From an uncultured Clostridia bacterium (GTDB lineage: Bacteria > Bacillota > Clostridia > Peptostreptococcales > Anaerovoracaceae), in NCBI GenBank assembly GCA_944386095.1, contig CALWZU010000001.1:1-64000 (forward strand): DNA of 64,000 nt, written 5' to 3'. The notes under the pieces are model-generated. The model was given only the letters and a program-made list of their open reading frames with translations, was not told where the DNA came from and did no database searches. Numbering within the stretch: position 1 is the first letter of the stretch; each line of letters opens with the position of its first letter. Both the position numbers and the translations under genes were made by a program. Below are positions 35,218 through 54,588 of this stretch, piece after piece.

Positions 35218-36471
35218 ATGAGATTTTACCAAAGCAAAACGGATTTATACCTGGAAAACACCGCCATCGAAAACCTGTTTATCTATGAATATATGATCCC
35301 GGCCAAAGGAGACGATGTAAAGATCTACCTGCTTGCCCGCATGTACGCCCAGCGGGACGAGCCGGTTTCTAACGACGAGCTTGCCAAGGAGCTTGGCCTT
35401 TCTCTGGGAGATGTGCTCAACGCCTGGGATTACTGGGAATCAAAAAAGGTCATTATCAAACGCTTCCACTCCAAAAGTAAAAAAGACTTCGATATCGAAT
35501 TCGTTTCTCTGAAAAACCTCATGTTCGGCTCCGGCCGCTCTCCTGCGGAAAAAGGGGAACTGAAAAAGCTTAATGCCTCCTCTGCCTCTCCCGCTCTCTT
35601 AAATCTGCTCTCCCAGCTGGAACAGCTTTCCGGCCGCACCCTCAGCGGAAAGGAATTTCATGATGTAAAGCTTTGGACAGAGGACTGGGGCATGGAGCCG
35701 GAAGTGATCCTTCAGGCCTGCCGCCAGTGTGATAAAAACAAAAAAAGAGGCGATCACGCCTATTTGAGCGCCATTGTCCGAAGCTGGTACGAAAAAGGGT
35801 TGTTTGATCTGAATACGCTGGAAAGCTATCTGGAAGAAAACGATAAACGCCATAATCTTTATAAACGGATCTTCCGGGCGCTGGGCTTTCGAGGCAGGTA
35901 TCCCTCTGAGGAGGAAGCCCGGATCATGGATATCTGGTTTGACGAATATCTGTTTGATATTTCCACGATCCTGGATGCCTGCAAAAAAACCGCCGGTATT
36001 TCCAGCCCCAGCATCAGCTATATCCACGCCGTTTTAAAATCCTGGTATGAGGAAGGGAAGGCTCCCTCCGGCAAGGGTCCGGCAGGCTCTGCCAAAAAAC
36101 GCCAGCTTTCCGATATTATGAGATCCTACGAGTCCCTGCGGGAGGAAAACAAAAAAAAGCATCAGCAGAGGCTGAAGGACATCTACCACGCTTTCCCCAG
36201 GATCAGCGAAATCGATCTGGATATCAAGGAGCTCAATCCCAAAATGTTGCAAATGCTTTTAGGCGGCCAAAGCAGAACCTCTACCTACCGTACGATGGAA
36301 CGGGAGCTGGCGGATCTGCGAAAGGAAAAAATCCACATCCTTACGGCCAACGGATATCCCGAAGATTACCTGGATCCCATTTATGCCTGTAAAAAATGCA
36401 AAGACACCGGATTTTTAGACAATGGAGAAAAATGCGTGTGCTTTTTGGAAAAAATGAACGCCGGTCAGTGA
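35218..36471 (+). CDS. DnaD-type primosome protein fused to a DnaC/DnaI-like zinc region, no AAA+ domain
   Basis: 417 residues from the ATG at 35218 (SD AGGAGGGG). Residues about 1-100 form a DnaD-type winged-helix region. Two DnaD C-terminal (DDBH2) modules lie at about 120-200 and 210-285, with YLSAIVRSWYEKG and YIHAVLKSWYEEG. From about 300 a helical segment is followed by ILTANGYPEDYLDPIYACKK and C391/C394/C406/C408 (CxxC, CxC). That end resembles the N-terminal region of clostridial DnaC/DnaI helicase loaders, which normally continues into an AAA+ ATPase. Here the gene stops at once and a terminator follows. DnaD-like proteins help load the replicative helicase; the fusion reading is inference. 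Confidence 0.8.
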   Translation: MRFYQSKTDLYLENTAIENLFIYEYMIPAKGDDVKIYLLARMYAQRDEPVSNDELAKELGLSLGDVLNAWDYWESKKVIIKRFHSKSKKDFDIEFVSLKNLMFGSGRSPAEKGELKKLNASSASPALLNLLSQLEQLSGRTLSGKEFHDVKLWTEDWGMEPEVILQACRQCDKNKKRGDHAYLSAIVRSWYEKGLFDLNTLESYLEENDKRHNLYKRIFRALGFRGRYPSEEEARIMDIWFDEYLFDISTILDACKKTAGISSPSISYIHAVLKSWYEEGKAPSGKGPAGSAKKRQLSDIMRSYESLREENKKKHQQRLKDIYHAFPRISEIDLDIKELNPKMLQMLLGGQSRTSTYRTMERELADLRKEKIHILTANGYPEDYLDPIYACKKCKDTGFLDNGEKCVCFLEKMNAGQ

Positions 36472-36500
36472 TACAAAGCTGCCGGCGTCTTTTCTTTTAT
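36458..36500. terminator. Bidirectional terminator between the dnaD-like gene and purA
   Basis: Arms acgccgg (36458-36464) and ccggcgt (36482-36488) with T-rich run-outs on both strands. It overlaps the dnaD-like stop codon and also serves the converging purA gene. Confidence 0.75.
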
Positions 36501-36502
36501 TT

Positions 36503-37831
<1,329 letters not shown>

Positions 37832-37931: not shown

Positions 37932-39275
37932 CTAGGCCTGCATATAGCTCTTGTCTCCGAATTTTGTATATTGACCCAGCCAGGTCAAAACCACCTCTCC
38001 GGTCGCTCCGTTTCTGTGCTTGGCCAAAATCACATCGCATTCGTTGGGTCTTTGGGTCTCTTCTTTGGTATAATACTCATCCCTGTATAGGAAAATAACC
38101 AGATCTGCGTCCTGTTCAATAGAGCCCGACTCTCTCAGATCCGATAAAATCGGCTTTTTTTTGTCTCCCTGTCTGGCCTCCGTCGCGCGGGAAAGCTGGG
38201 AAAGAACGATAATGGGACATTCCATTTCCCTGGCAAGCTGCTTAAGAAACCGGGTCAGAGCCGAAATTTCCAGCTGCCGGCTTTCCGCTCTGCCTTCAAA
38301 GCTCATCAGCTGTAAATAATCCACAAGGATCAGATCCAGCCCCTTTTCCATTTTGATCCGCCTGCACTTATTGCGCATTTCTATAGCGGTGATCCCCGGG
38401 GTATCATCGATCATAATATCCGCCTGCTCCAAACGGACGACCGCTTCCGACAGCTTGGACCAGTCCTCATCCTCCAGGCTTCCTTCCCGCATTTTTTGGA
38501 TTTCCACCAGAGCCTCTGTGCTGAGGATCCTTTCTGTCAGCTGCTCCTGGGACATTTCCAGGCTGAAGATCAAAACCTTTGCCCCCGCCTTCATCGCAGC
38601 GTTTCTGGCGATGTTTAAAGCCAAGGCGGTTTTTCCCATAGAAGGTCTTGCCGCCAGAATAATCAGATCGGATTTCTGAAGGCCTGAGGTCATTTTGTCC
38701 AGATCCCGAAAGCCGGTGGTCAGCCCCCGCAGCTCGCCCTTTTTCTGGGCCAAAAGCTGAAGCATATCCAAATTTTTAGCTAAAACCTCCCGAATCTGGG
38801 AAACGGTTTTTTTCTGCCGCTTCTGGGAAATCTCAAAAACCCGCTGCTCCGCATCCTCCAATACCTGAGCTGCGGTTTTATCTGCCGCGAAGCCTTCCTC
38901 CATGATTTCCGACGAAGCCCGGATCAGCTTTCGCAGGATGGATTTTTCCTCAACGATCCTGGCATATTGCATAACGTTGGCGGTAGAGGGCACTTCTGCG
39001 GACAACAGCCCAAGATAAGCCCTTCCCCCTGCCATATCCAGGTTTTTCCTGCGTTTTAATTCTTCTGCTACCGTCAAAATATCCACCGGCTCGTTTTTCC
39101 GATAAAGGCTCACAATGGCGTCGTAAATTTCCCTGTGAGCCTCTTTATAGAAATCCTCCGGCCGGAGAATATCCGTCACCTCAAGGAGCGCGTCCTGGTC
39201 AATCAGCGCCGCTCCCAAAACCGAGCGTTCCGCTTCGTCGTTTTGGGGCGGAATTCTTTCCGTGGCTGCTTTCAT
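37932..39275 (-). CDS. dnaB: Replicative DNA helicase
   Basis: 447 residues from the ATG at 39275 (SD GGGAGGAAATG); a frame start five codons upstream has no SD. Hexameric fork helicase (called DnaC in Bacillus subtilis). N-terminal domain: PPQNDEAERSVLGAALID. RecA-like ATPase: LIILAARPSMGKTALALNIARNA (Walker A), LDLILVDYLQLM (Walker B), and PIIVLSQLSRATE. Lies 49 bp after rplI. Its loader is not in the window unless the dnaD-like fusion takes part. Confidence 0.96.
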   Translation of the reverse strand: MKAATERIPPQNDEAERSVLGAALIDQDALLEVTDILRPEDFYKEAHREIYDAIVSLYRKNEPVDILTVAEELKRRKNLDMAGGRAYLGLLSAEVPSTANVMQYARIVEEKSILRKLIRASSEIMEEGFAADKTAAQVLEDAEQRVFEISQKRQKKTVSQIREVLAKNLDMLQLLAQKKGELRGLTTGFRDLDKMTSGLQKSDLIILAARPSMGKTALALNIARNAAMKAGAKVLIFSLEMSQEQLTERILSTEALVEIQKMREGSLEDEDWSKLSEAVVRLEQADIMIDDTPGITAIEMRNKCRRIKMEKGLDLILVDYLQLMSFEGRAESRQLEISALTRFLKQLAREMECPIIVLSQLSRATEARQGDKKKPILSDLRESGSIEQDADLVIFLYRDEYYTKEETQRPNECDVILAKHRNGATGEVVLTWLGQYTKFGDKSYMQA

Positions 39276-39324
39276 GACATTTCCTCCCATTCTATTTACA
39301 GAAACTGTTTTTCAAGCCGGTTCT

Positions 39325-53268: not shown

Positions 53269-54588
53269 TTATGATTTCAGTTCTCTGATCAGATTTTGTA
53301 CAATATCGTTTAAGCTGCTGTTGACTTTGATATCCGCTTCGATTTTTCCGTGGGCGTGCATAACGGTGGTATGGTCTCTGTTTCCGAATTCCTCTCCGAT
53401 TTTAGGAAGGGAAAGCTGGGTCAGCTCCCGGCACAGATACATGGCGATCTGTCTTGGAAAAGCCAGGTTCCGGGATCGTTTAGAGGATTCTATATCGGAA
53501 ACCTTTATATTAAAGTAACGGGAAACCGCTTCCTTGATCGAATCGGATGTGATGGATTTTTCTTTATCCACATAGACGTTTTTCAGAACGTTTTTCGCAA
53601 GATCTCTTGAAATCGGTATATTTTCCAGCTTAGACTGAGCGGATATGCGAATCAAAGCCCCTTCCAGCTCTCTTACGTTATACTGGATTTTTTCGGCGAT
53701 ATAGTCTATGGCATCCATCAGTCCCGGCGTGATTTCCAGGCGTTCCACCTCCGCTTTTTTACGAAGGATCGCGGTTCTGGTTTCTATATCAGGAGGCTGA
53801 ATGTCAGCGATCAGGCTCCAGCCGAAGCGGGATATCAGCCTGTCCTCCATATTTTGCATTTCTTTTGGGGGCTTGTCGCTGGTGATGATGATTTGCTTAT
53901 GATTGTTATAAAGGGCGTTAAAGGTATGGAAAAATTCCTCCTGGGTCCCTTCTTTCTTTTCCAGAAACTGAATATCATCGATGATAAGCACATCCACGTT
54001 TCGATATTTATCCCGAAAGGTACTGTTGGTTTTGTTTTGAATGGATGTAATCATTTCGTTGGTAAAGGTTTCTGAGGAAACGTAAAGAACCTTCAGCTTA
54101 GGCATATTTTCCTGAAGGTAGTTGGCGATAGCGTTGATCAAGTGGGTTTTTCCAAGTCCTGCTCCCCCATAGATAAAAAGAGGATTATAAACGTCCGCAG
54201 GCGCTTTGGCTACGGCTAAAGCGGCCGCATGAGCAAAATTGTTTGCTTTTCCGATTACGAAGTTTTCAAAGGTATATTTTGGATTGAAATCTCCTACGGT
54301 TTTATCTATAGGTCTTTCGGAAGGCTGCGCGAGAGCTTCTGCGGAAACAAAATTCGCCTTTAAGTTAACGCCGCAGACGTCTCTGAGAGCACTTTCGATG
54401 GGAGAAATATGGCGGTCGTTTAACCGTTCCTTGGAATAGTCATTTTCCGCCGCCAATGTAAAGGAAAGGTTTTCAAAATCCAGTTTGATCGGTTTAATTG
54501 GTTTGACAAAGGATTTAAAAGGGGCCTCGGCGATTTCTTCCTTCAGGATCGCAAGGGCCTTTGTCCATATTTCATTCATTTCGTCCAT
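53269..54588 (-). CDS. dnaA: Chromosomal replication initiator protein DnaA
   Basis: 439 residues from the ATG at 54588 (SD GGGAGGAAAG); the frame stays open for 51 codons upstream, through origin sequence, with no SD. Domain I at about 1-80 (MDEMNEIWTKALAIL), a short linker, AAA+ domain III with LFIYGGAGLGKTHLINAI and LIIDDIQFLEKKEGTQEEFF, and domain IV with the DNA-binding GNRDHTTVMHAHGKIE near the C-terminus. Binds DnaA boxes and opens the origin on both sides of its gene. Confidence 0.98.
   Translation of the reverse strand: MDEMNEIWTKALAILKEEIAEAPFKSFVKPIKPIKLDFENLSFTLAAENDYSKERLNDRHISPIESALRDVCGVNLKANFVSAEALAQPSERPIDKTVGDFNPKYTFENFVIGKANNFAHAAALAVAKAPADVYNPLFIYGGAGLGKTHLINAIANYLQENMPKLKVLYVSSETFTNEMITSIQNKTNSTFRDKYRNVDVLIIDDIQFLEKKEGTQEEFFHTFNALYNNHKQIIITSDKPPKEMQNMEDRLISRFGWSLIADIQPPDIETRTAILRKKAEVERLEITPGLMDAIDYIAEKIQYNVRELEGALIRISAQSKLENIPISRDLAKNVLKNVYVDKEKSITSDSIKEAVSRYFNIKVSDIESSKRSRNLAFPRQIAMYLCRELTQLSLPKIGEEFGNRDHTTVMHAHGKIEADIKVNSSLNDIVQNLIRELKS

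Follow-up and report, generated by a model that had tools for sequence, protein, structure and literature searches.

The dnaD-dnaC(N) fusion gene

The DNA analysed here is a 64,000-nucleotide stretch of the genome of an uncultured Clostridia bacterium of the family Anaerovoracaceae, called the window throughout. It holds a gene in which a DnaD protein and the N-terminal domain of a clostridial DnaC share one reading frame, with purA and dnaB beside it (Table 1).

Table 1. Features of the dnaD-dnaC(N) locus; positions are those of the window
Feature	Position	Strand	Basis or remark
dnaD-dnaC(N) fusion gene	35218..36471	+	417 aa ORF; ATG start, AGGAGG upstream
Winged-helix/DDBH1 domain of DnaD, residues 1-105	35218..35532	+	Foldseek to B. 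subtilis DnaD
First DnaD/DnaB_2 (DDBH2) domain, residues 131-195, Y182xxxI..W190	35608..35802	+	PF07261, TIGR01446
Second DDBH2 domain, residues 226-280, Y268xxxV..W276	35893..36057	+	PF07261 (two stretches)
Flexible linker, residues 281-293, in place of the C-tail of unfused DnaD	36058..36096	+	pLDDT <50 at 285-292
Helicase-binding (N-terminal) domain of clostridial DnaC, residues 294-413	36097..36456	+	NF005304, hhalign, pLDDT 92.9 as isolated domain
Putative zinc site, C391-x2-C394...C406-x-C408	36388..36441	+	Cysteine conservation
Intrinsic terminator overlapping the stop codon	36458..36494	+	Hairpin ~36458-36485, -18.9 kcal/mol, then T-rich run
purA, convergent neighbour, sits where the AAA+ half would be	36503..37792	-	ORF list; same order in L157
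dnaB replicative helicase, presumed binding partner	37932..39290	-	ORF list
dnaA AAA+ region	53806..54285	-	PF00308 and NF005304 searches of own genome

The part of the protein before the linker belongs to the DnaD/DnaB_2 primosome family, for which we used as criteria a winged-helix (DDBH1) fold, scores above the curated cut-offs of PF07261 and TIGR01446 and a YxxxIxxxW motif in DDBH2, all of them fulfilled. The AlphaFold model of the 417-residue fusion (mean pLDDT 89.1) matched B. subtilis DnaD in Foldseek (9a5c_B, E 3.6e-6), as well as the DnaD N-domain (2v79, probability 1.00, E 0.16) and the DnaD-like structure 2zc2, and on these matches the fold criterion is met. Both profile criteria are met as well, with 75.9 bits for PF07261 (E 1.9e-21, cut-off 22) and 58.2 bits for TIGR01446 (cut-off 24.95). 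A preliminary description of this DNA, made from the sequence alone, had named two DnaD repeats, and PF07261 does match in two stretches, each with a YxxxI/VxxxW motif in which Y182, W190 and Y268 are invariant in 74 fusions. Many positions of residues 1-105 are invariant or nearly so in these 74 homologues, and mean entropy is lowest in the second DDBH2 domain among all segments of the protein.

The gene stops right after the zinc region and a terminator follows, also as described, with the 5′ arm of the hairpin lying within the last codons of the fusion gene. The end of purA, on the opposite strand, lies 31 bp beyond the end of the fusion gene, and the distance of about 1.5 kb to dnaB proved to be 1.46 kb between gene ends. 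The arrangement differs in the one-contig Anaerovoracaceae genome G385 (L151 11834-14931), where dnaB and the fusion share a strand and the fusion follows directly, after about 50 bp, in an apparent parA-parB-yybT-rplI-dnaB run (gene names read from the open reading frames, without a family search), whereas in the window purA lies between the two genes and they are on opposite strands.

Identity of the C-terminal tail

Residues ~293-412 align with positions 2-121 of the 330-position NF005304 profile of clostridial DnaC (PRK06835) at an E value of 2.2e-28. When a profile of 11 fused tails was aligned by hhalign with one of 14 DnaC N-termini from sister families, the probability was 100 and the E value 9e-44 over 119 columns. 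C391, C394, C406 and C408, the CxxC...CxC pattern pointed out earlier, are invariant in the 74 fusions, as they are in 14 DnaC proteins that stand alone. By sequence comparison, the tail is a complete DnaC N-terminal domain in frame behind DnaD, with a resemblance far beyond chance.

The DnaC/DnaI family was defined by two features: a clostridial-type helicase-binding domain at the N-terminus, cysteines included, and an AAA+ domain with Walker A and B motifs, sensors and an arginine finger. The fusion has the former and lacks the latter, as its frame ends after NF005304 position ~122 of 330, and scores in the family are 99-103 bits against a cut-off of 215. The preliminary description was thus right that a helicase-contact part is fused to DnaD and that the AAA+ domain is missing. 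Because this defining domain is absent, we class the fusion as a member of the DnaD family and not of DnaC/DnaI; it may well work like a loader, for which we have no binding or loading data.

The same description had likened the tail to both DnaC and DnaI. The likeness to clostridial DnaC stands on the profile matches above. Neither sequence comparison nor Foldseek (PDB, BFVD) matched the tail to the B. subtilis DnaI N-domain, and no solved helicase-binding domain was recognised, by sequence or fold, for the model of the isolated domain. The relation to DnaI is therefore not demonstrated, and homology of the tail rests on the clostridial DnaC profiles instead. The C. difficile loader itself resembles DnaI mainly in its AAA+ part only (PMC5204125).

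Distribution of the fusion

We surveyed 61 genomes: 37 Anaerovoracaceae (each of another genus), two of a second family of the order (f9) and 22 from ten other families. DnaD and the DnaC N-domain share one reading frame in 36 of the 37 Anaerovoracaceae genera and in both f9 genomes; the sole exception is a metagenome-assembled genome (MAG) that is 80% complete, and two of the 36 matches start inside the protein, near contig ends. In the ten other families the match is divided between a separate DnaD and a separate DnaC. A full DnaC above the curated cut-off was found in all 22 genomes of these families and in none of the 39 from Anaerovoracaceae and f9. Widening the search to 93 family genomes (that of the window and 92 at least 95% complete) gave no intact DnaC.

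The fusion occurs in cultured organisms, including Anaerovorax odorimutans DSM 5092, Emergencia timonensis and [Eubacterium] infirmum NCTC 12940, and also in Bacilliculturomica, Clostridium aminobutyricum and Sinanaerobacter. These named relatives identify the family as Anaerovoracaceae, of the order Peptostreptococcales, after which Lachnospiraceae was dropped as a candidate source. Placement in Anaerovoracaceae was looked up for Anaerovorax and Emergencia only, and the other named relatives were recognised by sequence similarity. G385, a genome of 1.74 Mb in one contig, carries the fusion and lacks a full DnaC; apart from DnaA it gave only two AAA+ hits, both negligible. The fusion is a fixed trait of Anaerovoracaceae and of the sister family. 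What had been presented as a feature of one gene is indeed present there but is not limited to it. The preliminary description would have been refuted by the same tail in all ordinary clostridial DnaD proteins; sister families instead have another C-terminal tail and a separate DnaC.

Fate of the loader ATPase

It had been proposed to search the genome for an AAA+ DnaC/DnaI protein without the N-terminal part. With PF00308 and NF005304, the only strong AAA+ match of the initiator or loader type in the window's own genome was dnaA. DciA (PF05258) was found neither in the fusion protein nor in any of the 61 genomes, and the same search was positive in seven of 14 controls; a takeover by DciA was rejected on this basis.

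Several family genomes do encode, sporadically, AAA+ DnaC-like proteins that lack the N-domain and measure about 260-335 aa. Three of their genes were examined and all are taken as mobile because of their neighbours, whose names were read from open reading frames. Those of G011 and G268 (L152, L154) are on integrative and conjugative elements (ICEs) that hold RepA-type and PcfB-like genes (and a serine recombinase in G268), and that of G031 (L153) is on a prophage, adjoining terminase genes. CD0410 on CTn2 of C. difficile is a parallel (PMC5204125). We note that L152 (7537-9709) and L154 (7891-10330), from two genera, hold nearly alike RepA-type/DnaC-like/PcfB-type blocks of an integrative element, both directly after a gene resembling a 23S rRNA methyltransferase.

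The ATPase had been supposed lost, moved or split off. As the three examined genes all lie on mobile elements, a move of the AAA+ half elsewhere was rejected, and the absence of full DnaC from 93 genomes supports, at the level of sequence searches, loss rather than a move or a split.

A phage origin of the fusion was also rejected: of 11 hits in a phage collection, the four examined (L158-L161) carry dnaD-dnaC pairs, not fusions. These four records (MT837698, MT835471, MT838492, MT837496) are labelled as unverified bacteriophage from human feces; their dnaD-dnaC genes are of the ordinary chromosomal type, and they look like bacterial contigs.

Origin and selection

Unfused dnaD genes of the sister families encode 306-429 aa, and the distance between them and dnaC ranges from -4 to +112 nt. 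Their products (L132-L142) mostly end in a conserved FHxFxxR...YSxEELEKIL tail that is absent from the fusion. This lost tail may normally contact the loader. In a tree of DnaD plus the DnaC N-domain, Anaerovoracaceae and f9 form a single clade (SH-aLRT 86) with the separate genes of the order on the other side, so one event can explain the fusion in both. In an ancestor common to the two families, adjacent dnaD and dnaC would have been joined and the AAA+ half of DnaC deleted.

A sweep of the class turned up this short architecture again in a distant clostridial order (family f44; G117, G162, G092, G140; L147-L150), where a divergent DnaD is fused to a short DnaC N-domain. Eight of 11 genomes of that order had a match, all eight of them fused, and no full DnaC was found in the four genomes tested (G092, G117, G140 and G162). 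This is probably a second, independent loss of the loader ATPase, an argument from parsimony made without a species tree.

The retained domain is under strong purifying selection, judging by codon comparisons of close pairs: dN against dS was, for example, 0.084 against 1.13 and 0.079 against 1.31 in the tail, and 0.049 against 1.01 and 0.048 against 0.82 in the DnaD part of the same pairs. By entropy and by dN/dS, evolution is somewhat faster in the DnaC-derived domain than in the DnaD part.

Discussion

What we observe is that DnaD is fused to the DnaC N-domain, that the AAA+ half has been lost, that this state is fixed in the family and that the domain which remains is under selection. Loss of the ATPase together with survival of the helicase-gripping part on DnaD suggests helicase loading without a dedicated loader ATPase. 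We think, with a probability of roughly two in three, that the product of the gene is a helicase loader that is bound to the origin and has no ATPase; that the retained domain binds DnaB, that it loads DnaB and that no other ATPase stands in are inferences. In this model the winged helix and the two DDBH2 domains make up the DnaD part, which would bind DnaA and origin DNA. The linked DnaC N-terminal domain would hold the DnaB hexamer by its RecA-like domains, help to crack the ring and place it onto single-stranded DNA, and release would follow from DnaB's own ATP cycle and from primase binding.

Published work led us to read the fusion as an origin-tethered loader that needs no ATPase. The helicase-binding domain of E. 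coli DnaC, taken alone, reaches about half of wild-type DnaB loading and comes close to the full protein in stimulating unwinding (PMC8213410), and the N-domains of DnaI make most of the contact between loader and helicase (PMC3791466). In C. difficile, mutation of the loader's Walker A motif abolishes neither helicase binding nor the stimulation of loading nor release (PMC5204125), and the ATPase therefore seems to serve as a lock. In B. subtilis, DnaD is reported to bind DnaA and the origin (PMC10201431, PMC10201434). Since the E. coli and Firmicute domains show no relationship in sequence (PMC3290774), the E. coli precedent is an analogy only. Loading without the ATPase would carry a cost, the loss of the lock, perhaps offset by primase and by DnaD's own control.

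Neither an unrecognised partner ATPase nor self-loading of the helicase is excluded. The ATPase could act in trans, supplied by DnaA, itself closely paralogous to the DnaC AAA+ domain, or by a protein we did not recognise, with the fusion providing helicase contact only. The AAA+ domains of DnaA and DnaC/I are related (PMC3290774), DnaA is retained, and DnaD is reported to be a partner of DnaA in B. subtilis (PMC10201431). We consider this split unlikely, as the family shares no conserved AAA+ gene of the DnaC type, the hits examined being on ICEs or a prophage, and G385 has DnaA and otherwise only very weak AAA+ hits. Still less likely, in our judgement, is a helicase that loads itself or is loaded by the DnaD part alone, which would leave the retained domain as a regulator (a brake, a tether or a switch for primase exchange). 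The C. difficile helicase does show some self-loading and a dependence on primase (PMC5204125), and constraint on the retained domain is slightly weaker than on the DnaD part; against this, the whole family and a distant order have retained the domain with its zinc site, and the isolated E. coli domain can load helicase (PMC8213410).

A further explanation, an assembly or annotation artefact or a recent dnaD-dnaC pseudogene in one MAG, gains a little from the source of the window, an assembly of 128 contigs that is about 94% complete. It is refuted by relatives with the same fusion: the architecture recurs in dozens of independent assemblies, among them one-contig and cultured-strain genomes, with open frames under purifying selection.

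The role of the AAA+ ATPase in DnaC/DnaI loaders is still an open question, given that DnaB can be loaded in vitro by the helicase-binding domain alone. Nature seems to have deleted the ATPase throughout a family of gut and oral bacteria, probably twice, compensating by a tether to the origin factor DnaD. The question thereby becomes testable in a living system, and the fusion points to the DnaA-DnaD-DnaB order of assembly. A stronger proposal, to which we give even odds, is that DnaD with a DnaC-derived ring-opening domain is the sole obligate chromosomal loader of the family, with no loader ATPase, and arose at least twice in Clostridia. A survey of loaders found dna[CI], when present, throughout whole orders or larger groups and a few species with neither loader (PMC5109545); loss of full DnaC at the level of a family contradicts its statement that dna[CI] is in every species of such groups. 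Surveys that score the AAA+ domain alone would count these species as lacking a loader. We found no description of a DnaD-DnaC(N) fusion in the open literature, subscription papers and preprints being outside the search.

Several known systems can be set beside the fusion. DciA, too, would load the helicase without using ATP, in bacteria that lack DnaC/I, but its sequence and architecture are unrelated and the fusion has no DciA domain. The P protein of phage lambda is a loader without an AAA+ domain. P is reported to load DnaB (PMC6391071), and as a ring-opening loader without AAA+ it may work like the fusion; it is phage-encoded and not joined to DnaD, and the sequences were not compared. 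E. coli DnaC and B. subtilis DnaI are AAA+ loaders, whereas the fusion has neither an AAA+ domain nor Walker motifs, and its helicase-binding domain would be delivered by DnaD, in place of self-assembly of the loader. The closest counterpart is in C. difficile, where the DnaD-like protein CD3653 shares with the fusion its domain order (DDBH1-DDBH2-DDBH2) and the YxxxIxxxW motif in both DDBH2 domains (PMC5204125). CD3653 adjoins the DnaC/DnaI-type loader CD3654, like the unfused sister pairs of the order, in a neighbourhood near the replicative helicase of the same kind as that of the fusion (PMC5204125). At the level of published architecture the two systems differ: two proteins in C. difficile, the loader with its AAA+ ATPase, and in the fusion a single protein in which the ATPase is gone and the C-terminal tail of DnaD has been replaced.
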